64,000 nucleotides of DNA, taken from contig NC_020504.1 of NCBI RefSeq assembly GCF_000349325.1, positions 5,366,053 through 5,430,052 of the forward strand. The letters run 5' to 3'. Positions 25,250-38,209 of this stretch are shown piece by piece (the first letter of the stretch is position 1; every line of letters begins with the position of its first letter). The translations under genes were made by a program, and so were the position numbers. Below the pieces are notes generated by a model that had not been told where the DNA came from, ran no database searches, and worked only from the letters and a program-made list of their open reading frames with translations. This DNA is from Streptomyces davaonensis JCM 4913. Lineage in GTDB: Bacteria; Actinomycetota; Actinomycetes; Streptomycetales; Streptomycetaceae.

Positions 25250-26386
<1,137 letters not shown>

Positions 26387-26591
26387 GGTGATGGGCCCCC
26401 TTCTACCGGCAGGAACGTGCCGGACGATCCGTTGTAGGAAGGTGGTGGTGTAGTCCATGTGAGTGGACTGACCTCGGACGGTACCTGGCGTTCACCTGCT
26501 CTGTCAGCACCCGGACCCCTGTGAACTTCGCGGAAATTTTCGACAGGGGCACGCCGGGTCGTGGGTACACTGCACGGGCACGTGCGTGCAC

Positions 26592-26759: not shown

Positions 26760-28226
26760 GTGAGAGGTCCGGAACGGGTCCGCAATGAATTGGCCGTGGC
26801 CATCGTGGACGCGCTTCAGGAGTCGGCGACGGTCAGGCAGACGAGCAGCCGCGAGTTATGGCGGGAGATGCTCGCCAGTGAGCTGGGCGCGCCGGTGGAG
26901 CCGTTCGGCGGTGACCGGCTGCGGCCCTGGCTGCTCCAGGTCGTCAAGGCGTGCATGGCGGTCGGTGACGGCGCCGCCTGTCTGGTGCGCTCGCTCGAGT
27001 ACGTGGAGCAGGAGTCGGCGACAGTAGCCGCGTTATGGCCGCTCGTGGACGAGGTGGAGGCGGTCGACTTCTTCGACAGTGCCGACCTCGGCCACCTACG
27101 GCCGGTCCTGGAATCCCTGCGCACCATCGAGCTGGCGTCGATGGCACGGCGCGCGAGCCGCTCCCGGGTCCAGGAGCTGCCCCGCTGGTGCCAGACCGGC
27201 TGGCAGGTCTTCCTGCGTCTTGCGGGCCAGAACACCCCACCCGGCGAGCTGCCGCCCAGCATGGCCTTCGTGGCACTGGCCGCCGACCGGTTCGTGGAGG
27301 AGGGCTGGATGGAGGCCGCGGAAGGGCTGCGCCGGTTCAATCGCGGCCAGTCCCAGCGGCTGGGTCTTGAGGGCCTGCTGGGCGAGTGGCAGCACTCGGA
27401 GCTGCCGCAGCCCGCGCCCTCGGTGGTGCCCGCGTATCTGATGATCCAGTTCGAGCCGGACCGCAATGAGGACGGCCGCTACTACCTCACCCACTGGCGC
27501 CAGTCCGACTCCACGGGCTGGCACCCGGTGCGCGGCGAGACCGTCCACCTGTGCCGCGACGAACTGCCGGGCGCGGTGGAGCGGCTGATCGAGGAGTCCG
27601 AGGCGCGCTGGGCCGATCTGCGCCAGCCGGTCATCCTGGAATTCGTGTTGCCTTGGGAACTGCTCAATGAGCCGGTCGAGTGGTGGTCGAAAGATTCCGG
27701 TCATCTCGATCCGACCCCTTTGGCCATGGACTATCCCGTTCTGATCCGCTCGCTGGAGCGGCTTCAGCGCGCCGCCTGGCACCGGCCCTGGCACGCCAAG
27801 TGGCGGCAGTTGAAGGAGCGCCCGGCCGACAGCCAGCCGCACTGGAGCCGGCCGGGCGAGGACGGGGCGTACTTCTTCCATCTGGAGCGGGAGCTTAAGG
27901 AGGACGGGCACGCCGTGTGCCTGGTGCTCAGCGAGCCGCCGGGCGACGACTCGGGCACCGGGCGCCGTGAAGTGCTGGCCGGGCTGCGGGCCGGGGTGCC
28001 CGCGATGATCTGGCACCGCTCGGACTGCTCCGACCCGCACTTCCAGGACGCGATCAGCGAGATCCTCCAGGACCGGGGGCTCGGCTCGCTCGCGGAGAGC
28101 GTCGGCAAATGGCGCAATGACGCGCTCGCGCTCGGACCCGAGGGCTGGGACGGCCACGTCGGGCGTCATCTGGCCATCCTTCTGGACGACCCCGAGCGCA
28201 AGCCGGGCCCCCCGGGGCCGGTGTAG
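26760..28226 (+). CDS. EAD/VMAP-C conflict-system protein
   Basis: A 488-residue protein. Residues about 5-95 are an all-helical effector-associated domain (RVRNELAVAIVDALQE ... LLQVVKACMAVGDGAACLVRSLEYVEQES). Its pattern matches the EAD at the C-terminus of the protease-like protein at 34.7 kb. From about 215 on is a VMAP-C (vWA-MoxR-associated protein C-terminal) domain with VILEFVLPWELLNEPVEWW and YPVLIRSLERLQRAAWH. VMAP proteins are adaptor/effector hubs of NTPase-driven conflict systems. The GTG start follows GGGGAGG. Two TTA codons (26,856 and 27,033) suggest bldA dependence. The next large gene follows on the same strand. The biochemical role is unknown. Confidence 0.82.
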   Translation: MRGPERVRNELAVAIVDALQESATVRQTSSRELWREMLASELGAPVEPFGGDRLRPWLLQVVKACMAVGDGAACLVRSLEYVEQESATVAALWPLVDEVEAVDFFDSADLGHLRPVLESLRTIELASMARRASRSRVQELPRWCQTGWQVFLRLAGQNTPPGELPPSMAFVALAADRFVEEGWMEAAEGLRRFNRGQSQRLGLEGLLGEWQHSELPQPAPSVVPAYLMIQFEPDRNEDGRYYLTHWRQSDSTGWHPVRGETVHLCRDELPGAVERLIEESEARWADLRQPVILEFVLPWELLNEPVEWWSKDSGHLDPTPLAMDYPVLIRSLERLQRAAWHRPWHAKWRQLKERPADSQPHWSRPGEDGAYFFHLERELKEDGHAVCLVLSEPPGDDSGTGRREVLAGLRAGVPAMIWHRSDCSDPHFQDAISEILQDRGLGSLAESVGKWRNDALALGPEGWDGHVGRHLAILLDDPERKPGPPGPV

Positions 28227-28510
28227 CGGCGATGACTTCGCAGAGCGCGGCGCGAGGCATGCCCGGGCGCCTGTTGCGGCCCGGCGGCGGCTTCTTGTCG
28301 ATACGCGCAGGAGAGTGGCAGACGGCCTTGCGGGCGGCAGTGGGCGGTGCCACGCTGGACGCGAGAAGAGCCGGCGTGCTCGACACCCCAGGGGGGCGCG
28401 TTCCATCCGCTGTTCCTTCACCCTCCGATCTACTGTCCAGTTTGTACTCCCGCCCCCCGTGGCCTGCCGTCTTGCACTGTATGCAGACCACTGCCAGGCT
28501 TGGCACGTGG

Positions 28511-31500
28511 ATGTCACGCATGCCCTTACCGGACGCTCTGAGAGCGCTACTAATGCAGTGTGACGATGTCCCACGAACAGCGGCGGAACCGGCGTCTGAC
28601 GAAGCGTCACTGGATGCCGTACCGCATGCCTTGAGCGAACTGGCGCGGTCGTCCTCCGCGGACCCTCCGTCCGTGCTCCTCGTCGTGGACGATCACGCGA
28701 CGATGCGGGTGTGGGAGAAGACGGTCCGGAAGCTGGCCGATGAACTCGCCCGCGAGGAACGGCTGGGCGGGGTCAGCACGGTACGGCTGCTCAGTTCCGA
28801 TGACACCGAGCCGGCCCGGATCCGGCTGGAGGAACTGCCGTCCGCCCCGTCCGAGCGGCGGGTGGTGCTGGTGCTGACGGACGGTCTGGCCGCGGGCTGG
28901 CGCTCGGACGCGGTGCTGCCGCTGCTGCGGGAGTTGGGGCGGACCGAGCCGCTCGCCCTGTTGCATCTGCTGCCCCAGCACTTGTGGTCCAGAGCCGGAC
29001 TCGACGTGAACCGGATGCGGTTCGGCTGCGCCCGCCCCTGGGCGCCCAACGACACCCTGCGCTGGGAACTGCGCACTTCTCCCCTCGAACCCGTCGACGA
29101 CGCCGACGCCCGTACCGGCGTGGTCCCGGTCCCCGTGCTGGAGCCGACCGAGCGGTCGCTGTCCGGCTGGGTCGACCTGGTCACGGGAGGCTCCGACGGC
29201 TGGGTGGAGATGTCGGGGATCCGGGCCCGGGACTGGAAGCGCCGGGCGGACGCGGCGCGGGCGGTGCCCTGGGTGGAGGACGTACCGGACCCGGCCAGTG
29301 CCGTACCGCCCTGGGAGCGGGTCTCGGACTTCCGGGCCGCCGCCTCCCCGACCGCGTTCACCCTCGCCACCCGGCTCGCCGCCGCGCCGTTGACCCTGCC
29401 GGTGATGAACGCGGTGACCGCCTCGGTGCCGGGGGCCGGGCCCGCCCATCTGGCGGAGCTGCTGATGAGCGGCCTGGTGCGGACCTCCGGCGCGGACGCC
29501 GAGCGCGCGGCTGATGTGGCCTTCGTGTTCGGCCCCAACATCCGCCAGGAGTTATTGGCGCTGTCCCGGCGCAGGGACACCGCCCGGGTGCTGCACGACG
29601 TCCGGGTCCTGCTGACGTCCGAACCGCCGGAAGTGCGCGAACCGCTTGCCACCGGCCCCCAGGTCGCCGAGCCGCTCCTGCCCGCCCCCGAGGAACTCCT
29701 CGAAACCGCCGACGTGCCCTCGGTGACCCGGCGCAACGTCGCCTTCCTCCGCGTCGAACTGGCCGCGCTGCGCGCCCTGTCCGGGAAGTTCCTCGTCAGA
29801 GCCGACCGGCTGGCCCGCGCCCTGCGCGACTACGACCGGCAGAACTCCGTCAGCCTGCGCAAGGGCGTGGGCTCCCGCACCGCTCACGAACAGGCCCCGA
29901 CGAGGGCCGGGACAACTTCAGAAGGAGCCACGGCCATGACCGCCACGCATACGCAGCCCGCGGTGGAGAGCGGGCGTTCGACGCCGCGTATCTGGGGCAA
30001 CATCCCGCCGCGCAACCCCAATTTCACCGGCCGGGTGGACCTTCTCGATCGTCTGAGTGAGCGACTCCGTGAGGGCACCACCACTGTGCTGCCCGAGGCG
30101 ATCCACGGCATGGGCGGTGTCGGCAAGACGCAGTTGGCGATCGAGTACGCCTACCGCAATCAATCCGAGTACGACGTCGTGTGGTGGATCGCCGCCGAGC
30201 GCCCTGGCCAGATCGGGCAGGCCCTGGTGGAACTGGCCCAGCGGCTGGGCCTGGTGACCAGCTCCGAGGCCAACATCGCCGGTCCCGCAGTGCGGGAGGC
30301 GCTGCGCGAGGGACGGCCGTACTCGCGCTGGCTGCTGATCTTCGACAACGCGGACAGCCCGGAGCGGGTGCGCGACTACTTCCCGACCGGGGGCAGTGGC
30401 ACCATTCTCGTCACCTCCCGCAACCGGCGCTGGAGCGTGGTCGGTCCCTCCCTCGAAGTCGATGTCTTCACCCGTGAGGAGAGCAAGGAGCTGCTGCGCC
30501 GCTCCGGGCCCGACGACCTCGACGACCGGGACGCGGACCGGCTCGCCGACGCCCTCGGAGATCTGCCGCTGGCGCTGGAACAGGCGGCGGCTTGGCGGGC
30601 CGAGACCGGAATGCCGGTCTCGGAGTATCTGCGGCTGTTCGAGCACAAGCGGGCCGAGCTGCTGGAAGTCTCGCCGCCGCCGGACTACCAACTGCCGGTC
30701 GCCGCGGCGTGGAACGTCTCGCTGGACCACCTGGAGACCCGCAGCCTCACCGCGCTGCGGCTGCTCCAGCTCTGCTCCTACTTCGCGCCCGACCCGATCT
30801 CTCGGTCCATCTTCTCCGGGCTCGGCGGCTCCACCATCGACCCCGAACTGGACCGGGCGCTCAACGACCCGATGCGGCTCGCCCGCGCAGTACGGGAGAT
30901 CAACCGCTACTCCCTCGCCCGGATCGACCACCGCACCAACTCGATCGAAATGCACCGCCTGGTCCAGGCCGTGCTGATCCACCGCATGACCCCCGAGGAA
31001 CAGAACCGCATGCGCAATGGGGCCCACACCCTTCTGGCCGCCGCAGACCCCAAGGGTCCCAACCAGTCGGCCAACTGGACGCGTTACGCCGAGCTGTACG
31101 GCCATGTGATCGCCTCCGGCGCCATCGAGTCCGACCAGCCGTGGGTCCGCGAACTCGTGATGAACGTGGCGAAGTACCTCTGGTACTGGGGCGACCACAA
31201 GGTGGCCCGGGAGTTCACCGAGCAGGCGTGGCAAACCTGGCAGGCACTGTTCGGAGAGGAGGACCAGCAGACCCGGCTGATGGGCTGGTGGCTGTGTTTC
31301 CTCTACCTGAAGGTCGGGCGCTACGACGACGCCTCCCAGCTGGTCGAACGGCTGAAGGACATCTACGTCCGTACCGCGCCCGAGGGCCCTGAGGACACCC
31401 GCGAGGACGCGCTGGAGACGATGAACCTCGAGGCCGCGGTGCGACGTGTCCAAGGGGACTTCGCCGCTGGTGTGGAACTGGACGAGATGGCCTACGACCG

Positions 31501-32503
31501 GGCCCGGCGCGCCTTCGGCGAGGACGACCCGACGACGCTGGGCCGCGCACACAACCTCGGGGTGAGCCTGCGTCTCGTGGGCGAGTTCCAGCGGGCGCTG
31601 GAGCTGGACCGGCACACGCACGCGCTGAAGACGCGGCTGTACGGGGGGGATCACAACCAGTCGCTGGTCACCCAGGAGTCCATCGCCATCGACGTCCGCG
31701 AGACCGGGGACTACGTCGGTGCACGGTCCTTGCAGGAGGCGGTCGTCGACGGATTCCGACCCGTCTTCGGCGCCGGGAACCCACAGACGCTCCAGTCGCT
31801 GCGGCAGCTCGGTGAGGCGTGCCGGAAGGAGGGCGACCACGCGAAGGCGCTTGAGCTGTCGCGAGAGGCCTTCAACCAGTTCACCCGGCGGTACGGCGAC
31901 ACCCACCCCGAGTCCCTCGCTGCCGCGCTGGCGCTGTCGGTGGCGCTGCGGCACAGTGGCGAGCTGGAGGCGGCCGGGGAGCGCGGGGCGAAGACCAGTG
32001 AGCGGTTCCGGCGGGTGTTCCAGGCCGATCATCCGCATGTGCTGGCCGCGGATGTGGATCTCGCGGTGACTTTCCGGCTGCTGGGGCGTGTGGAGGAGGC
32101 GCGGGCGCTGGATGAGGCGGCGCTGGCCTCGCTGACCGAGCGCCTGGGGGAGGGGCATCCCATCGTGTTGGCTACCGCGATCAATCTCGCGAGCGATCTG
32201 AGTGCGTTGGGACAGGTGGCCGAGGCGCGTGAACTTGGGGAGCGGTCGCTGGAGTTGAGCCGGGAGCGGCTGGGGGAGAACCACCCCACGGCTCTGGTGT
32301 GCGCGGCGAATCTGTCGCTGGATCTGGCTGCGCTCGGAGCGACGGATGAGGCGGAGGCGTTGCGGGCGGACACCTTGTCCCGTATGGAACAGGTTCTGGA
32401 TGCGCCTCGGCTGCGGTCCGCAGAAGCGGCGCCGCATCCGGCGACTGTGCAGGTGCGGGCTCGGGAGCGGGCCAACTGTGACATCGATCCGATGCCGTTG
32501 TGA
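28511..32503 (+). CDS. SAV_2336-type / NB-ARC / TPR fusion protein (FxSxx-COOH system type)
   Basis: About 1,330 residues. The N-terminal ~450 residues form a SAV_2336-type domain (VLLVVDDHATMRVWEKTVRKL, then VVLVLTDGLAAGWRS, then LALLHLLPQHLWSR). A ~60-residue hydrophilic linker leads to an NB-ARC NTPase with Walker A GMGGVGKTQ, Walker B LLIFDNAD and a sensor block GTILVTSRNRRW, plus a winged-helix region. About 13 TPR-like repeats follow (LGVSLRLVGEFQRALELDRHTH and similar). The TPR half is of the kind annotated with FxSxx-COOH peptide systems. The start is uncertain: the frame stays open back to 28,232, but codon use there looks non-coding; 28,511, 28,520 and 28,553 are candidates. An in-frame TTA at 29,552 points to bldA control. 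An internal ATG at 29,936 has a strong ribosome site. Confidence 0.82.
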   Translation: MSRMPLPDALRALLMQCDDVPRTAAEPASDEASLDAVPHALSELARSSSADPPSVLLVVDDHATMRVWEKTVRKLADELAREERLGGVSTVRLLSSDDTEPARIRLEELPSAPSERRVVLVLTDGLAAGWRSDAVLPLLRELGRTEPLALLHLLPQHLWSRAGLDVNRMRFGCARPWAPNDTLRWELRTSPLEPVDDADARTGVVPVPVLEPTERSLSGWVDLVTGGSDGWVEMSGIRARDWKRRADAARAVPWVEDVPDPASAVPPWERVSDFRAAASPTAFTLATRLAAAPLTLPVMNAVTASVPGAGPAHLAELLMSGLVRTSGADAERAADVAFVFGPNIRQELLALSRRRDTARVLHDVRVLLTSEPPEVREPLATGPQVAEPLLPAPEELLETADVPSVTRRNVAFLRVELAALRALSGKFLVRADRLARALRDYDRQNSVSLRKGVGSRTAHEQAPTRAGTTSEGATAMTATHTQPAVESGRSTPRIWGNIPPRNPNFTGRVDLLDRLSERLREGTTTVLPEAIHGMGGVGKTQLAIEYAYRNQSEYDVVWWIAAERPGQIGQALVELAQRLGLVTSSEANIAGPAVREALREGRPYSRWLLIFDNADSPERVRDYFPTGGSGTILVTSRNRRWSVVGPSLEVDVFTREESKELLRRSGPDDLDDRDADRLADALGDLPLALEQAAAWRAETGMPVSEYLRLFEHKRAELLEVSPPPDYQLPVAAAWNVSLDHLETRSLTALRLLQLCSYFAPDPISRSIFSGLGGSTIDPELDRALNDPMRLARAVREINRYSLARIDHRTNSIEMHRLVQAVLIHRMTPEEQNRMRNGAHTLLAAADPKGPNQSANWTRYAELYGHVIASGAIESDQPWVRELVMNVAKYLWYWGDHKVAREFTEQAWQTWQALFGEEDQQTRLMGWWLCFLYLKVGRYDDASQLVERLKDIYVRTAPEGPEDTREDALETMNLEAAVRRVQGDFAAGVELDEMAYDRARRAFGEDDPTTLGRAHNLGVSLRLVGEFQRALELDRHTHALKTRLYGGDHNQSLVTQESIAIDVRETGDYVGARSLQEAVVDGFRPVFGAGNPQTLQSLRQLGEACRKEGDHAKALELSREAFNQFTRRYGDTHPESLAAALALSVALRHSGELEAAGERGAKTSERFRRVFQADHPHVLAADVDLAVTFRLLGRVEEARALDEAALASLTERLGEGHPIVLATAINLASDLSALGQVAEARELGERSLELSRERLGENHPTALVCAANLSLDLAALGATDEAEALRADTLSRMEQVLDAPRLRSAEAAPHPATVQVRARERANCDIDPMPL

Positions 32504-32530
32504 TGTGACGGTGGTGCGGGCTCGCTGTGG

Positions 32531-32560
32531 CGCGGGTGGGGTGAGTGTCGCTCACCCGCG
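32531..32560. terminator. Possible terminator between the fusion gene and the convergent HExxH gene
   Basis: An inverted repeat CGCGGGTG/CACCCGCG with a 14-nt loop, 28 nt beyond the fusion-gene stop. There is no T-run on either strand, so this is moderate evidence only. Confidence 0.45.
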
Positions 32561-32622
32561 CGTGCGGGGGTGAGGGGGACCCCCAGCCCACCCGTGCCGC
32601 CCTGCGGCAGGACTGCCCGCGG

Positions 32623-34389
32623 CTACGCGAGCCAGGTTGCCAGGGCTATTGGGTCCGGAGGGGTGCCCGTAGCCGCTGTTATTGCTGCGTGTACTGCTCG
32701 GGCTTGTTCTGGGCTGTGGCGTAGGAAGTGGGCTGTTGTGGGGGAGGTTTGGGTCAGGGTTTGGGACAGGCCCGACCAGGCTGTGGGGTGGGTGGGGTCG
32801 GTTGTCAGGTGGGTTTTGTAGGCCTCTTGGGCTGCTTCTGTTTCGCCTGTCGCCAGTAGGACGTCTGCGCGCAGGGCTCCTGTTACTGCCGCCTTCTCCG
32901 GATCCTCTCCTGACAGGCGGTGGCGGGTCAGGACGGCCAGTGTGTTCAGCCAGCGGGCGGATTCGTCGCTGACCACCTCGGAGGGAGCGGCGAGGGAGTG
33001 GGGTGGAGTCGGGGCTCCGGAGAGCCAGGCCTGCGTGGTCTCCTCCACTGCCTGGCGCGGTGGGCGCAGGTGGTGTGCGCGCCAGCGGGTCTCGTGGTCC
33101 GCGGCGCAGCGGCGCGCCAGGGCCAGGGGGGTCTCCGGGACTGGTTCGTCCAGCCAGCGGGTGCACAGGGCGTACAGGCGGTCCAGGAGCTGCGCTCCTA
33201 TGGGCGTCAGGCGCTCATGGCGGTGGACTTGGCGCAGGGCCGTGGTCACCTGGGCTCGCCAGAGGGCGAACTCGAAGTGGGCCAGGGGAGTCGAGGCCCC
33301 CGAGGCCAGACGGTGGGTGCGCCAGAAGCGCGTGATGCCGACGAAGGCGTAGATGCCTTGCAGCAGGCCGTCCAGCGGGCGGGGGTCGTCCCGCCAGGGG
33401 GCGTACCAGAGTTCGGGGGAGTCCGAGGTCTCCGGGGTCAGCAAGGGTGTCAGGTGCAGCAGGCCGCCCAGCTTGGTGTGCTGGAACTCGTGCACCAGGG
33501 TCACCGCCAGCTGGACCGGGTCGTCCGCTTCCGAGGATTCGACGCCGCCGAATGCATCCCCGGCTGTCACACTGCGTGGCCGAAACCTTTCCTGCGGCGG
33601 GGTCGGAGTCAGCGACAGCAGACCCCGGCGCATCGCCTCCGCGGTCCTCGGCTGTTCGTCCAGCAGTATTGTCCAGGCCCGCTCCAGCATGCGCCGCCAC
33701 GCTTCCGCCGACTCCTCGGACAGCGGGCGCGGTTCGGTCGGCCGGGGGTACGTCCGGTACGGGTCCACGTCGTCCAGGGCCAGCGAGAGGCGGTGGGTTG
33801 CGGGGCCGAGCAGCAGCCGGCGAAGGGGGTGCCAGCCCGGCGCCGGGGTGTCCGGCGTGGCCGGCACCGTGACCGTGGCACCCGGTGTCGTGACGACCGC
33901 GCGGCCCGCCTCCCGACCTACGGTTGCCATCGCCCACGGCTCGGTGGCCGGGAGTTCGGCGCAGCCCAGGGTCGGCAGCGGTACCCGGCCGTGCCGCATC
34001 GGGACCTCGATGGTGAAGTCCAGCTCCGCGCGTAGCGCTGCCGCGGCGGCCAGGGAGGAGATATGGCCCAGCACAACCCACAGCGGCGGATCGTCCTGCG
34101 GGTCGCTGCCGCGCAGTCTGCGCAGCGCCGTGACCAGCCACATTCCGGTCTGCGGATAGAGCAGCAGGTCGTCGACGACGTCCGGTGCCCGGCGCTGGGC
34201 CGCGCTGAGCAATTCCCACGCGGGGTCGAGGCCGGTCGCGTCGTCGAGCATCCGTAACAGCAGCAGCCGTCGGCTGCGTTCGGCCGCGAGCAGCAGGTCC
34301 ACCGTGCCCGGACCGCCCTCGCCGCAGCTCAGTTCCTCCAGGCCGGACGACGGCAGATGGTGATGGAGGAACGCGCCCTCAGCACGCAT
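32623..34389 (-). CDS. HExxH-motif putative peptide beta-hydroxylase (copy 1)
   Basis: A 588-residue protein with the HExxH domain of putative peptide-modifying enzymes found next to FxSxx-type precursors. The metal motif HEFQH is at residues 300-304, and the family block YAPWRDDPRPLDGLLQGIYAF lies ~45 residues later. Such enzymes have been described as 2-oxoglutarate/iron peptide beta-hydroxylases rather than proteases; that is family knowledge, not visible here. The ~100 C-terminal residues look like a TPR-type helical unit (EAAQEAYKTHLTTDPTHPTAW). It begins 17 nt after the stop of a 58-residue precursor-like gene, so the two are coupled. It is clearly paralogous to the 36.0-37.8 kb gene. 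Confidence 0.85.
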   Translation of the reverse strand: MRAEGAFLHHHLPSSGLEELSCGEGGPGTVDLLLAAERSRRLLLLRMLDDATGLDPAWELLSAAQRRAPDVVDDLLLYPQTGMWLVTALRRLRGSDPQDDPPLWVVLGHISSLAAAAALRAELDFTIEVPMRHGRVPLPTLGCAELPATEPWAMATVGREAGRAVVTTPGATVTVPATPDTPAPGWHPLRRLLLGPATHRLSLALDDVDPYRTYPRPTEPRPLSEESAEAWRRMLERAWTILLDEQPRTAEAMRRGLLSLTPTPPQERFRPRSVTAGDAFGGVESSEADDPVQLAVTLVHEFQHTKLGGLLHLTPLLTPETSDSPELWYAPWRDDPRPLDGLLQGIYAFVGITRFWRTHRLASGASTPLAHFEFALWRAQVTTALRQVHRHERLTPIGAQLLDRLYALCTRWLDEPVPETPLALARRCAADHETRWRAHHLRPPRQAVEETTQAWLSGAPTPPHSLAAPSEVVSDESARWLNTLAVLTRHRLSGEDPEKAAVTGALRADVLLATGETEAAQEAYKTHLTTDPTHPTAWSGLSQTLTQTSPTTAHFLRHSPEQARAVHAAITAATGTPPDPIALATWLA

Positions 34390-34406
34390 GGGCGGCCCCG
34401 GGCTCC

Positions 34407-34583
34407 TCAGTCATAACGTCCCGGATTGAAGTTGCTGACGCTCTCCTGCGCGAGGTCAATGTGCTGGTGCAGTTCGTCCAGCGATCCGGCAAGAGCCAGA
34501 CTGTCCATGGAGCGCAGCGATTCAAGAGAAACCCCCGCGAGATCGACTAGGTTGGACTCGACGGCGGCCACAGACGGCTCCAT
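34407..34583 (-). CDS. FxSxx-like precursor peptide (copy 1, ends FNPGRYD)
   Basis: A 58-residue peptide. The leader-like part reads VESNLVDLAGVSLESLRSMDSLAL, which fits the ESxLxDLxGVxLxxL pattern of FxSxx-COOH precursors. The C-terminus is SNFNPGRYD instead of FxSxx. The ATG is preceded by GGGGGAAGGGG; a TTG three codons upstream is possible. It lies immediately before the HExxH gene and after the EAD-protease-like gene on the same strand. It is probably the substrate of the downstream enzyme, with modification in the last ten residues (inference). Confidence 0.8.
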   Translation of the reverse strand: MEPSVAAVESNLVDLAGVSLESLRSMDSLALAGSLDELHQHIDLAQESVSNFNPGRYD

Positions 34584-34701
34584 GACGGCCAAACCCCTTC
34601 CCCCCGGCTCTAGTTGTGCTACGGGCTGCTCACATCCCCCTGATAATGGCCCGCGGTGCCGGGGATGAAACCCCGCGTTCGTGCCGCGCCGCGATATCAG
34701 G

Positions 34702-35664
34702 TCAGCGGTGGCGCCGGGACAACTCCACCGCCTCCTGGTCCATTCGGACGACCCCGACGGATTCGCCCTCCACCAACCGTATCGCTTCCAGGAGTTGGTC
34801 CAAGGTCCCGCGATAACGCAGACAAGTACGCACGATCCCGAAGACGTCCGGGCGCAGGGCGGGGGAGCGCGGGCTCATCGCCGAGATCACCGGATCGATG
34901 CTGTCCAGGACGAGAGCGAGGCCGTTGCGGTCGCTCACGCAGGGCAGCAGGGTCAACGCGGTGACGAGGCCGTCGAGTTCGTGCAGGGGGAGATTCTCCG
35001 GCAGGGCGGCGAGACTGATCCGTCCGGTGGGGCTCGGGGGCAGACCGGCGTGCTCGTGGAGCAAGTCCAGTTCACTCGCGGTCAGCAGCGCGTACCAGCG
35101 GTCCACGGGGGTGACGGTGAGGTGACCCGGCCCGTCCGTCCCGCGGTGCGCGCCGCCGACCAGGCCGATCAGGAGGTCGTCGTGCCAGACCGCGGCGCCG
35201 GACATGCCCTCCCAGGGCCAACGGTCCGGACGAGTGTTCATGCATCCCGCCGGTAGTGGGTCGACGGCGAGTTCGAGGGTGTCGCCGCGGTCGTCGGACG
35301 GCGCCTTGACCGTTCCGCTGATGCGGAGACCGGTGTACCCCAGGGCCGTGAAGGGCACGGGGGCGGCCTGCTGGGTCAGGGTGCCGTAGGCGGGGGGTGA
35401 GCAGAAGCCGAACGCCACGCCCGTGAGCTTCAGCAGCGCCACATCGGCCCGGTCGGAGGCGAGTGCCACGAGGGCGGGTGAGGTCCACATGCTGTGGCTG
35501 CCCAGTCCGACCCATACGGTCGCTTCCTGTGCGCCGTCGAGCAGCTGGGCCGAGGTGAGGATCCATCCGGTGTGGACCCGGTACCCGGAGCCGTGCCGCT
35601 CCCGGCCCCGCCCTGCGGTCACGACGATCTCTGCCACCCGTGCCGGATCCGGTCTCACCGCCAC
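34702..35664 (-). CDS. Trypsin-fold protein with C-terminal EAD, catalytic His replaced
   Basis: About 320 residues. Residues ~25-185 form a trypsin-like double beta-barrel: WILTSAQLL occupies the place of the usual WVLTAAHC, Asp74 is in DRADVALLKL, and Ser155 is in EGMSGAAVW. The catalytic His is therefore Gln40, so the protein may be inactive or act as a sensor. Residues ~229-306 are an effector-associated domain (LVTALTLLPCVSDRNGLALVLDSI ... FGIVRTCLRYRGTLDQLLEAIRLVEGES). EAD-trypsin proteins are standard partners of VMAP systems and are thought to meet them through EAD-EAD contacts. The GTG at 35,664 is favoured by an upstream GGGGG; a TTG at 35,691 would add nine residues. Confidence 0.83.
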   Translation of the reverse strand: MAVRPDPARVAEIVVTAGRGRERHGSGYRVHTGWILTSAQLLDGAQEATVWVGLGSHSMWTSPALVALASDRADVALLKLTGVAFGFCSPPAYGTLTQQAAPVPFTALGYTGLRISGTVKAPSDDRGDTLELAVDPLPAGCMNTRPDRWPWEGMSGAAVWHDDLLIGLVGGAHRGTDGPGHLTVTPVDRWYALLTASELDLLHEHAGLPPSPTGRISLAALPENLPLHELDGLVTALTLLPCVSDRNGLALVLDSIDPVISAMSPRSPALRPDVFGIVRTCLRYRGTLDQLLEAIRLVEGESVGVVRMDQEAVELSRRHR

Positions 35665-35854
35665 TGCAGCAGACCCCCGGTTCCCTCGCAACTCCTGTAC
35701 TGCCTCCGCGAGTTAGATCCTATTCCGCCCCTACCCGCTACCAGTACCGCTGTTCTGTCACTCGATCCGGGTGGATTCGGTGCCGTGAAACCGATGCGAC
35801 GTCTGCGATGCATTATGGTTGCTCAAGAAGTCAGAAACCACCCTAAATAGTGAA
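35665..35854. promoter_or_regulatory. Divergent promoter region between the EAD-trypsin gene and precursor peptide 2
   Basis: 190 nt of lower GC content than its surroundings that must carry promoters for both arms of the peptide/hydroxylase module. No confident -35/-10 pair or operator palindrome could be picked by eye. Confidence 0.5.
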
Positions 35855-36040
35855 ATGGACGAGTATATGGACAAGTCTGGAGTCGAGTCCGAGCTGATCG
35901 ACCTCAGTGGTGTTCCGTTGGACGCCTGGCCCACTCTTCCGCTTCCGCCCGCCGACGGCTCACTACGCCGCCTGCTCAGCCGTATCGACGACCCGGCCAG
36001 CAGCCTCGGTGGCTACAACCCGCAGCGCGACGAAGCGTGA
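35855..36040 (+). CDS. FxSxx-like precursor peptide (copy 2, ends YNPQRDEA)
   Basis: A 61-residue peptide (57 if the ATG at 35,867 is used) with the leader GVESELIDLSGVPLDAW, then a Pro-rich stretch and GSLRRLLSRIDDP, and the C-terminus LGGYNPQRDEA. It shares the ES-L-DL-GV-L leader, a GSL..L...ID block and the aromatic-N-P-x-R end with copy 1. Its TGA overlaps the GTG start of the second HExxH gene (GTGA), the tightest possible coupling. Neither start has a strong ribosome site. Confidence 0.8.
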   Translation: MDEYMDKSGVESELIDLSGVPLDAWPTLPLPPADGSLRRLLSRIDDPASSLGGYNPQRDEA

Positions 36041-37770
36041 CGAGCCCGCACGTCCTGCCGGCCGACTCCTTCGACGAACTGCTCGGCGGCGGTGGCGGTC
36101 CCGCCGCCGTGGCCGAGCTGCGGGCGAGCGAGCGCAGTTGGCGGCTGTTGGTGGTACGGGCGCTCCTGGACGCCTCCGACGAGGCCCCCACGACTGCCTG
36201 GCGGCTCCTCATGCGGGCCCGTGCCGCGGACGAGACCGCCTTCGAGGAACTGCTCGCCTATCCGGCCGTCGGCGTATGGGCCGCGCACACCCTGCGGAGG
36301 CTGCGCGGTACGGCGGCCGGTGCCGGCGCCCCGGACACCGGCTATCTGCACGCCGTCGCGGCCAGCGCAGGGATCCGGGCGGGAGTGGACTTCCGTACCG
36401 ACGTCCCCGTGCACGAAGGCTGGGCCGTGCTCCCCGCGCTGGGCGCCATGCGGGTGGCGGGCGGGGGATCTGCCGAGGTGGTCGCCGCCGACGGCCGTGT
36501 GCTGGTCGCCGGGAGGCCGCTCGGCGGGGCCGACTGGCACCCGCTCACTCGGCTGGAGGGGGAGGGATGCGGGCTGCTGCTGGACGACACCGACCCGTAC
36601 CGCACCCTGCGTACCCCCGTCCCCGCCGAGCCCGTCGACACCGACGACTGGCAGGGGCTGTTCGCCGAGGCGTGGGAGATCCTGCGTGAGTGGGACGAGA
36701 GCGCGGCCTGCGCGCTGGCCGAGGGCCTCGTGACCCTCGTACCGCGCCCCCGTGCCGAGAGGTTCCGGCCGCACAGCGCCTCCTCCGGGGACGCCTTCGG
36801 TGCGGCCCTCGCCTCCGTCCCCGACGACGGCGAGCAGCTCGCCTCGACGCTGGTGCACGAGTTCCAGCACAACAAACTCAGCGCCTTCATGCACCTGTTC
36901 ACGCTCTACGACGACCAGGGCAGCGGCGGCGGACGGCTGCACTACGCCCCCTGGCGGGACGACCCGCGGCCGCTGGGCGGGCTGTTGCAGGGCGTGTACG
37001 CCTTCTTCGGGGTCACCGGGTTCTGGCGGCGGCGCGCGCATCCGCTCGGGCGGTTCGAGTTCGCGTTGTGGCGGGCTCAGACCGTACATGCGTTGCGCGG
37101 GATCGGTGCGGCGGAGGGGCTGACCGGGCTGGGGCGGCGCCTGGTGGCCGAGCTGGAGGGGCGGCTCGCACCCTGGCTGGCGGAGCCGGTGGAGGAGCGG
37201 GCCGCCGTGGCCGCGGAGTTGGCGGTGGCGGATCATCGGGCGACCTGGCGGGCGTATCACCTGCGTCCCGATCCGGGGGCGGTGCGCGCGTACGCCACCG
37301 GCCGCCCGCTGTTTGCCGACCCGGCTCCGCCGGACCTCGTGCCCGGCACCCCGTCCCGCGGGCTCGACACCCGGGCCGTGCTGGCCCGCTGGCTGCTGGC
37401 CGACCCGGCCGGGTTCGACGCGCTGCGGGCGGACCCCGGGGCCACCGTGGAGGGCGCCCGGCCCGAGGACGTCGCCCTGGTCGACGGGGACGCGGAACGG
37501 GCGTCGCGGATGTGCCGGGAGCGGATCGCGCGGGGCGACGGGGACCCCGAGACCTGGGTGGGCCTCGGGCTCGCGGCGCGGGTGGCCGGGGACCCGGCGG
37601 GCGCGGCGCTGCTCGCCCGACCGGAGCTGGTGATGGCGGTGCATGCGGAACTCGGGGCGGGGGCCGATCCGTTGGAGACGGCTCGGGGGCTGGTCAGCGA
37701 CCCGGTGTCAGCAGTCGGAGACCGCCCGGGGCTGCTCAGCCGCCCAGTTCCAGCAGCGCCTCGTCCGTGA
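36037..37770 (+). CDS. HExxH-motif putative peptide beta-hydroxylase (copy 2)
   Basis: A 577-residue paralogue of the 32.6-34.4 kb protein. The metal motif HEFQH is at residues 274-278 (LVHEFQHNKLSAFMHL), preceded by ERFRPHSASSGDAFGAAL and followed by YAPWRDDPRPLGGLLQGVYAFFGVTGFWRR, the same order as in copy 1. The N-terminal ~250 residues carry blocks LLDDTDPYRTLRTP and DWHPLTRL, also shared. The GTG start overlaps the precursor stop by 4 nt. The 3' end overlaps the convergent acetyltransferase gene by 35 nt. Probable substrate: the 61-residue peptide just upstream. Confidence 0.85.
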   Translation: MTSPHVLPADSFDELLGGGGGPAAVAELRASERSWRLLVVRALLDASDEAPTTAWRLLMRARAADETAFEELLAYPAVGVWAAHTLRRLRGTAAGAGAPDTGYLHAVAASAGIRAGVDFRTDVPVHEGWAVLPALGAMRVAGGGSAEVVAADGRVLVAGRPLGGADWHPLTRLEGEGCGLLLDDTDPYRTLRTPVPAEPVDTDDWQGLFAEAWEILREWDESAACALAEGLVTLVPRPRAERFRPHSASSGDAFGAALASVPDDGEQLASTLVHEFQHNKLSAFMHLFTLYDDQGSGGGRLHYAPWRDDPRPLGGLLQGVYAFFGVTGFWRRRAHPLGRFEFALWRAQTVHALRGIGAAEGLTGLGRRLVAELEGRLAPWLAEPVEERAAVAAELAVADHRATWRAYHLRPDPGAVRAYATGRPLFADPAPPDLVPGTPSRGLDTRAVLARWLLADPAGFDALRADPGATVEGARPEDVALVDGDAERASRMCRERIARGDGDPETWVGLGLAARVAGDPAGAALLARPELVMAVHAELGAGADPLETARGLVSDPVSAVGDRPGLLSRPVPAAPRP

Positions 37771-38209
37771 GTCGGTACACCGTCCACTCGTCCTGCGGGC
37801 GGGCGCCCAGGGACTCGTAGAAGGCGATGGACGGGGTGTTCCAGTTCAGGACGGACCACTCCAGGCGCTGGTAGCCGCGGTCCACGCAGATGCGGGCCAG
37901 TTCGGTGAGCAGGGCCTTGCCGTGGCCGGCGCCGCGGGCGGTGGGGCGGACGTAGAGGTCTTCGAGGTAGATGCCGTGGACCCCGCGCCAGGTGGAGAAG
38001 TTCAGGAACCACAGGGCGAAGCCGACGGCTTCGCCGTTGGTGTCGTCGACGGCCATGTGGGCGTAGGCGGCGGGACGGTTGCCGAAGAGCGCCTCGTGCA
38101 GCTGCTCCTCGGTCGCCTTCGCCTCGTCCGGGGCCTTCTCGTACTCGGCCAGCTCGCGGACGAGGGTGTGGATGACGGGGATGTCGGCGGGGGTCGCGTT
38201 GCGGATCAT
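37736..38209 (-). CDS. GNAT acetyltransferase, diamine/spermidine acetyltransferase-like
   Basis: A 157-residue GNAT enzyme. The block ALWFLNFSTWRGVHGIYLEDLYVRPTARGAGHGKALL closely resembles SSAT-type diamine N-acetyltransferases, with the acetyl-CoA loop RGAGHGKA. The C-terminal beta-bulge and LEWSVLNWNTPSIAFYESLGA are also typical. It probably acetylates a polyamine or a related amine in the cytoplasm. A gamma-glutamylputrescine-oxidase-like gene lies 1 kb away, which fits. It is 9 nt downstream of the phosphotransferase gene on the same strand. Confidence 0.87.
   Translation of the reverse strand: MIRNATPADIPVIHTLVRELAEYEKAPDEAKATEEQLHEALFGNRPAAYAHMAVDDTNGEAVGFALWFLNFSTWRGVHGIYLEDLYVRPTARGAGHGKALLTELARICVDRGYQRLEWSVLNWNTPSIAFYESLGARPQDEWTVYRLTDEALLELGG

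Follow-up and report, generated by a model that had tools for sequence, protein, structure and literature searches.

An island of genes at positions 26760-37770 of a 64,000-nucleotide stretch of Streptomyces davaonensis JCM 4913 (contig NC_020504.1, positions 5,366,053 to 5,430,052 of the forward strand; hereafter the window) is described here. It encodes, from left to right, VMAP and FxsT on the plus strand, the enzyme HX1, the precursor peptide pep1 and a trypsin-like EAD2 protein (TRYP) on the minus strand, and the precursor peptide pep2 and the enzyme HX2 on the plus strand. The island is read, with a probability of roughly 0.6, as a VMAP/NB-ARC conflict-type system devoid of MoxR, in which two leader-core peptides are each co-translated with, and oxidised by, their own Fe(II)/2-oxoglutarate HExxH enzyme. 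The supporting features established by sequence comparison are the enzyme family, the coupling of peptide and enzyme genes, the conserved leader, the intact HExxH and APWR..DPR motifs, the fold like that of SjiH and ChlH (HX2 model), and two cassettes that differ in ancestry and are retained together. A preliminary description of this DNA had placed two small and two HExxH open reading frames (ORFs) here, arranged head-to-head as TRYP-pep1-HX1 on the minus strand and pep2-HX2 on the plus strand; all four exist where it put them. It had regarded them as a peptide-modifying module resembling those of ribosomally synthesized and post-translationally modified peptides, and the family, the fold (HX2 model) and the peptide coupling are all consistent with that proposal.

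Precursor peptides

The gene for pep1 (34407..34583, minus strand) starts with ATG and encodes 58 amino acids (aa), with the leader VESNLVDLAGVSL and the C-terminus NFNPGRYD. The gene for pep2 (35867..36040, plus strand) encodes 57 aa, with the leader VESELIDLSGVPL and the C-terminus GGYNPQRDEA. The common leader pattern VES-L-DL-GV-L, given earlier as ES-L-DL-GV-L, is present in both. A gap of only 17 bp separates pep1 from HX1, and the stop codon of pep2 overlaps the GTG start of HX2 by 4 bp, which suggests that translation of each peptide is coupled with that of its enzyme. The pep2 ORF originally given as 35,855-36,040 is confirmed as such, but its start probably has to be moved: only 6 of the 13 aligned two-cassette loci have the ATG at 35855, whereas all 13 have a start at 35867 (12 ATG, 1 GTG), which is therefore the likelier one.

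Sixty regions around homologues were taken from genomes of the same genus, giving 61 regions with the window. A leader profile was built from the short ORFs adjoining the enzymes and then run on the remaining short ORFs of these regions. It matched 63 of 217 enzyme-adjacent short ORFs at 42.9-93.3 bits, whereas the best of 6,554 others reached 11.4 bits. Because the profile was seeded by the leader pattern, the control ORFs are the meaningful part of this comparison. The association of peptide and enzyme is beyond chance. The sample was later enlarged by 10 regions and 76 named loci (cited below by L numbers, genomes by G numbers), and identical stretches were collapsed, leaving 145 distinct peptides for tail counts and 150 distinct enzymes for upstream-peptide counts. 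The decayed copy L055 was excluded when peptides, enzymes, MoxR genes and cassettes were counted, and two long proteins, L078 (1,912 aa) and L080 (1,824 aa), stand outside the 150. The preliminary description had staked its proposal on peptide genes standing beside homologous HExxH genes in other genomes, and a leader peptide lies directly upstream of 140 of the 150 enzymes.

A C-terminal R-x-[DE] was found in 73 of the 145 peptides, compared with 76 of 17,716 control short ORFs and none of 401 large genes. The tail of pep1, GRYD, is of the R-x-D type; that of pep2, QRDEA, is only R-x-E-like. The family PF27839, cited by accession only, is precomputed on 41 of the 42 proteins found with pep1 and on 4 of the 36 found with pep2, and some relatives of the peptides carry the database label FXSXX-COOH. 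Two similar peptides, both ending in GAERID, precede a single HExxH gene in L057 / L181.

HExxH enzymes

HX1 (32623..34389, minus strand, 588 aa) and HX2 (36037..37770, plus strand, 577 aa, GTG start) each consist of an alpha-ketoglutarate (aKG)-HExxH peptide oxygenase part and a C-terminal TPR-like part. Both match TIGR04267, with 168.1 and 161.0 bits, respectively (curated cut-off 40). They are 43% identical and contain the blocks HEFQH, ERFRP..S...GDAFG and APWRDDPRP..GLLQG, on which their paralogy had been proposed. H300, E301, H304, W332, R333, P336 and R337 (HX1 numbering) are invariant in 58 aligned rows. The fold resembles that of SjiH (22ob/22nu) and ChlH (8s5f), for HX2 by a predicted model and for HX1 by sequence. 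Entry 8s5f is titled HExxH domain of ChlBHExxH, and 22nu is named radical SAM core domain-containing protein. The window enzymes share with these aKG-HExxH domains the fold, the HExxH and the PWR.D.R core, but are standalone and carry the additional TPR-like part.

Kaur et al. (2020; PMC7159879) called the HExxH protein of such systems a peptidase, citing Haft and Basu. HX1 and HX2 would then be zincin-like enzymes that trim a C-terminal peptide off the precursor without any oxidation. The solved structures nearest to the HX2 model in fold are the two aKG-HExxH domains, with every peptidase ranking far lower, and the PWR.D.R block common to these domains is preserved in both window enzymes, which makes the peptidase quite improbable.

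It is also improbable that one or both enzymes only bind the leader, as a scaffold or sensor, and carry out no useful oxidation, while the NB-ARC protein guards peptide and enzyme together. NCBI does name a related FxsBH form (NF040587) whose hydroxylase part is inactivated, although both window proteins score below its cut-off of 225 (132.0 and 98.6 bits), and the core of pep1 drifts quickly behind a nearly fixed leader among 42 proteins found by search with it (the window's own peptide being included twice, in two start versions). Against this, the HExxH residues are invariant in alignments of 58 and 62 rows (overlapping sets), and the core of pep2 is highly conserved, with GGY in 36 of 36 and PQR in 35 of 36 proteins from the corresponding search.

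Predicted oxidation site and mechanism

If HX1 and HX2 are oxygenases, as preferred here, characterised relatives point to a target residue. According to the accessible text of PMC12636437, PflC and PosC attack the Ala immediately N-terminal to the Arg of ARMD. PosC variants with Gly at that position retained some cleavage, and those with Gln were hydroxylated and left uncleaved. PesO is described in the accessible text of PMC13060819 as hydroxylating Pro18. Since residue 20 is Thr or Val and residues 21-22 are Asp-Asn in the motif R(V/T)DN, Arg is deduced at position 19, and Pro18 would directly precede it. The window peptides bear an X-R-x-D/E tail like the targets of PflC, PosC and PesO, and on that ground oxidation is predicted at Gln53 of pep2 and Gly55 of pep1. 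These three likewise belong to the aKG-HExxH enzymes, and the residue they attack stands directly before R-x-D (ARMD; PR(V/T)DN). They differ in belonging to Pseudomonas and Peribacillus clusters with multinuclear non-heme iron oxidase (MNIO) genes, and the accessible texts name no VMAP or NB-ARC genes there.

The enzyme would bind the E-S-x-L-x-D-L..V-x-L leader and bring the X-R-x-D/E tail of the C-terminus to the iron, so that oxidation falls on the residue before Arg. A Gln or Glu target would undergo beta-hydroxylation; a Gly target might undergo alpha-hydroxylation with loss of the tail. The modified peptide would work together with the NB-ARC/TPR protein, as a signal or as a toxin, as may be gathered from the accessible part of Kaur et al. 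(PMC7159879). Alternatively, in a suggestion of our own, the NB-ARC protein could be guarding it. The trypsin-like protein would be brought to VMAP by the EAD2-EAD2 recruitment that Kaur et al. proposed. A bolder version, entertained only tentatively, is that this immune-type NB-ARC locus, akin to plant nucleotide-binding leucine-rich-repeat proteins, watches two chemically different self-made peptides, one cut and amidated at Gly55 and the other carrying hydroxy-Gln53. X-R-x-D would then be a common register of aKG-HExxH enzymes, and the second channel would have been imported from another VMAP system as a second, independent signal.

Several observations weigh against the oxygenase reading or its predicted target. 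PosC tolerates the loss of any single one of Arg, Met and Asp in ARMD, and Gln residues upstream are hydroxylated by it as well (PMC12636437, accessible text), so the shared register may be a coincidence. The residue before Arg in the 42 pep1-type proteins is E in 25, Q in 5, G in 4, K in 1 and S in 1, and the tail is absent from 6. No R/D-type tail is present in 52 of the 145 peptides. Ten of the 150 enzymes have no upstream peptide. Among these, L118 and L138 are overlong ORFs that contain it; L155, L170 and L174 carry a peptide ending in PPGRVD on the 3' side of the enzyme, at 0.4-1.5 kb; and none was detected in L064, L077, L126, L173 and L177. A third iron ligand was not identified in the HX enzymes, neither an exporter nor a leader peptidase was identified in the island, and PADLOC returned no match for its five large proteins. 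Among the literature matches listed, whose coverage excludes most subscription journals, no activity is shown for any enzyme of the VMAP-linked group and no experiment on a VMAP-linked HExxH peptide system appears; the accessible text of PMC8195603 and PMC12257519 contributes nothing further.

Oxidative scission of every pep1 was considered and is weakened, the residue before Arg being mostly Glu in its relatives. Peptides ending in [AG]RA[DE] occur in L074, L079, L081-L084, L086-L089, L091 and L092; they closely resemble the ARMD tail cut by PflC and are perhaps the best candidates in the family for oxidative scission.

Origin and distribution of the two cassettes

In a tree of 60 enzymes (unrooted, drawn at midpoint), the HX1 and HX2 proteins of two-cassette loci form separate groups, each with a Shimodaira-Hasegawa-like approximate likelihood-ratio test (SH-aLRT) support of 100. 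The two-cassette HX1 proteins fall among those of single-cassette loci. The sisters of HX2, in L048, L103 and L142, are each the sole HExxH gene seen in their locus. A single clade of two-cassette HX1 and HX2 was rejected by the approximately unbiased (AU) test (p-AU 8.4e-9). In-place duplication of a single cassette is ruled out by the tree and the AU test, and with it the earlier view that one system had been duplicated and both copies kept. Given the separate clades, the HX2 sisters in other loci and the rejected common clade, the arrangement would be explained most simply by addition of the second cassette from another VMAP system. The HX2 clade stands beside enzymes of Actinoplanes and Frankia with weak support (80-83 SH-aLRT).

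A search with HX2 across 392 genomes of the same genus found the two-cassette arrangement in 8 of them, and 16 distinct fetched loci have it. By coordinates it also occurs in G491 and G497 (unmapped; they may repeat named records); G523 is the same as L109. Apart from the decayed L055, both cassettes are present in all 20 fetched records with an HX1 that shares 62% identity or more with that of the window. L055 (G196:C3:65000-84900) is a fragmented duplicate of the entire two-cassette island; the genome that carries it also has an intact copy, L035. Two peptide-HExxH pairs per locus were also seen in Amycolatopsis (L136, L145, L151, L160); in L136, L151 and L160 a separate FxsT comes after each pair, in part truncated by the locus ends. 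Doubling in Amycolatopsis is thus, from gene order, by whole modules, unlike in the window.

VMAP, FxsT and MoxR

VMAP (26760..28226, plus strand, 488 aa) comprises EAD2, VMAP-M0 and VMAP-C, all over the Pfam cut-offs, and its gene adjoins that of FxsT in relatives. FxsT (28232..32503, plus strand, 1423 aa) consists of a SAV_2336-type, vWA-like N-terminal part followed by NB-ARC and TPR, the latter two identified by Pfam. It scores 857.9 bits with NF040586 (cut-off 300) and 230.7 bits with the SAV_2336 N-terminal model (cut-off 200). The P-loop GMGGVGKT and the vWA-like D...TD residues are preserved. In a fold search with residues 63-542 the best vWA row had a Z score about equal to those of several phosphoribosyltransferase rows, and Foldseek gave no match under E 0.001. 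VMAP and FxsT, which the preliminary description had overlooked together with the missing catalytic His of TRYP, assign the island by gene content to the published class of conflict systems (accessible part of PMC7159879).

No MoxR gene was found in the island or in the window's locus group (61 loci examined). Among those of the 61 loci in which both VMAP and FxsT were detected, MoxR is missing from the 13 that belong to the window's group and present in the 38 others. The EAD2-trypsin gene adjoins pep1 in all 13. MoxR lies between VMAP and FxsT in L048 and L103; none was detected in L142. A clean exchange of MoxR for the trypsin gene is contradicted by L128-L130, L142, L143 and L148 of the named set, which have neither TRYP nor a detected MoxR, and by L066, which has MoxR and a weak (31%) TRYP match. 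The genome of the window contains eight VMAP-C genes, that of the island included, and four MoxR-like genes adjoin other VMAP genes, so MoxR could be supplied in trans. A second FxsT/MoxR/VMAP locus of this genome (G000:C1:6446577-6452937) has an EAD2 gene in place of the HExxH gene, and no TIGR04267 match was found near it.

Trypsin-like EAD2 protein

The middle gene (34702..35691, minus strand) was characterised by Pfam, a 44-row alignment and dN/dS, the ratio of nonsynonymous to synonymous substitution rates. The earlier assignment to a trypsin-fold/EAD protein agrees with these data: EAD2 exceeds the Pfam cut-off, and trypsin falls just under it (25.0 vs 27.6 bits, E 3.6e-5). The catalytic His is replaced by Gln at residue 49, while Asp83 and Ser164 are kept. 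Other losses are Asp to Gly in L109 and Ser to Ala in L039/L121 (one locus). For the window against L034, L118 and L113, dN/dS is 0.66-0.78 in the trypsin part, 0.13-0.19 in the EAD2 part and 0.16-0.29 in the other genes. Between relatives the trypsin part gives 0.42-0.64, so its fast change is not specific to the window. These ratios indicate that the EAD2 adaptor is under constraint and that the trypsin part is much less so across the group, most visibly in the window. The window protein is probably inactive as a protease, its trypsin-like domain probably being a binding domain or decaying.

A role of TRYP as the maturation protease of the peptides, with the two cassettes making parts of a single two-peptide product, is accordingly unlikely. 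It would suit the position of TRYP directly before pep1 in the mapped HX1-group loci and the intact triad in 40 of the 44 rows (some rows being one locus twice). The missing His of the window copy, the missing Asp of L109, the elevated dN/dS of the trypsin part and the absence of TRYP from the HX2-only loci L048 and L103 within the fetched 20 kb all speak against it.

Comparison with known systems

In 2020 Kaur et al. predicted that one branch of the VMAP/NB-ARC conflict systems makes peptides (accessible part of PMC7159879). Their RxD-type system resembles the island in having VMAP, an NB-ARC/TPR protein whose N-terminus is vWA-like (putatively so in FxsT), an HExxH gene and a small precursor ending in R-x-D. 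The island differs by the lack of a MoxR gene, the two cassettes, the separate EAD2-trypsin gene and the reading of the HExxH protein as an oxygenase; the ternary MoxR-vWA-VMAP set of that class is not present. The FxSxx-COOH (FXS) system of NCBIfam shares the FxsT equivalog (NF040586) and TIGR04267. An F-x-S-x-x-COOH end is found in neither window peptide and in none of the 145 distinct peptides. No FxsB radical SAM/SPASM gene is among the five large island genes, to which the search for it was confined. Membership of the FXS system proper is ruled out by the missing tail and the missing radical SAM gene in the island.

The class, since 2020, and characterised members of the aKG-HExxH family are already known. 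Judged by the literature matches listed, four things are new: the form with two cassettes of differing origin, the lack of MoxR, the decay of the trypsin, and an X-R-x-D register that VMAP peptides have in common with the substrates of studied aKG-HExxH enzymes. The oxygenase reading names a target residue, and the function can thereby be tested directly in Escherichia coli. With its two cassettes of unlike ancestry, the locus also has a cross-reactivity experiment built in, one family of leaders being combined with two cores. Should the peptides feed into the NB-ARC protein, the island would exemplify the use of post-translational oxidation of peptides in bacterial immune signalling.

Conserved element and flanking genes

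A 22-bp element, TCACTCGATCCGGGTGGATTCG, lies 5' of pep2 (35758..35779, plus strand), with one match in the window and none in shuffled sequences. With variations, it aligns in 13 two-cassette loci, where a GATGC..TA block follows. A shortened pattern matches 23 of 213 loci, one of which (L160) is outside the group. The element is perhaps a promoter or operator.

The island is flanked by ordinary genes. An acetyltransferase gene (37736-38209) lies to the right. The gene to the left (25250-26458) is named from sequence and motifs as an ABC-transporter ATPase, and its orthologue also borders several related islands.

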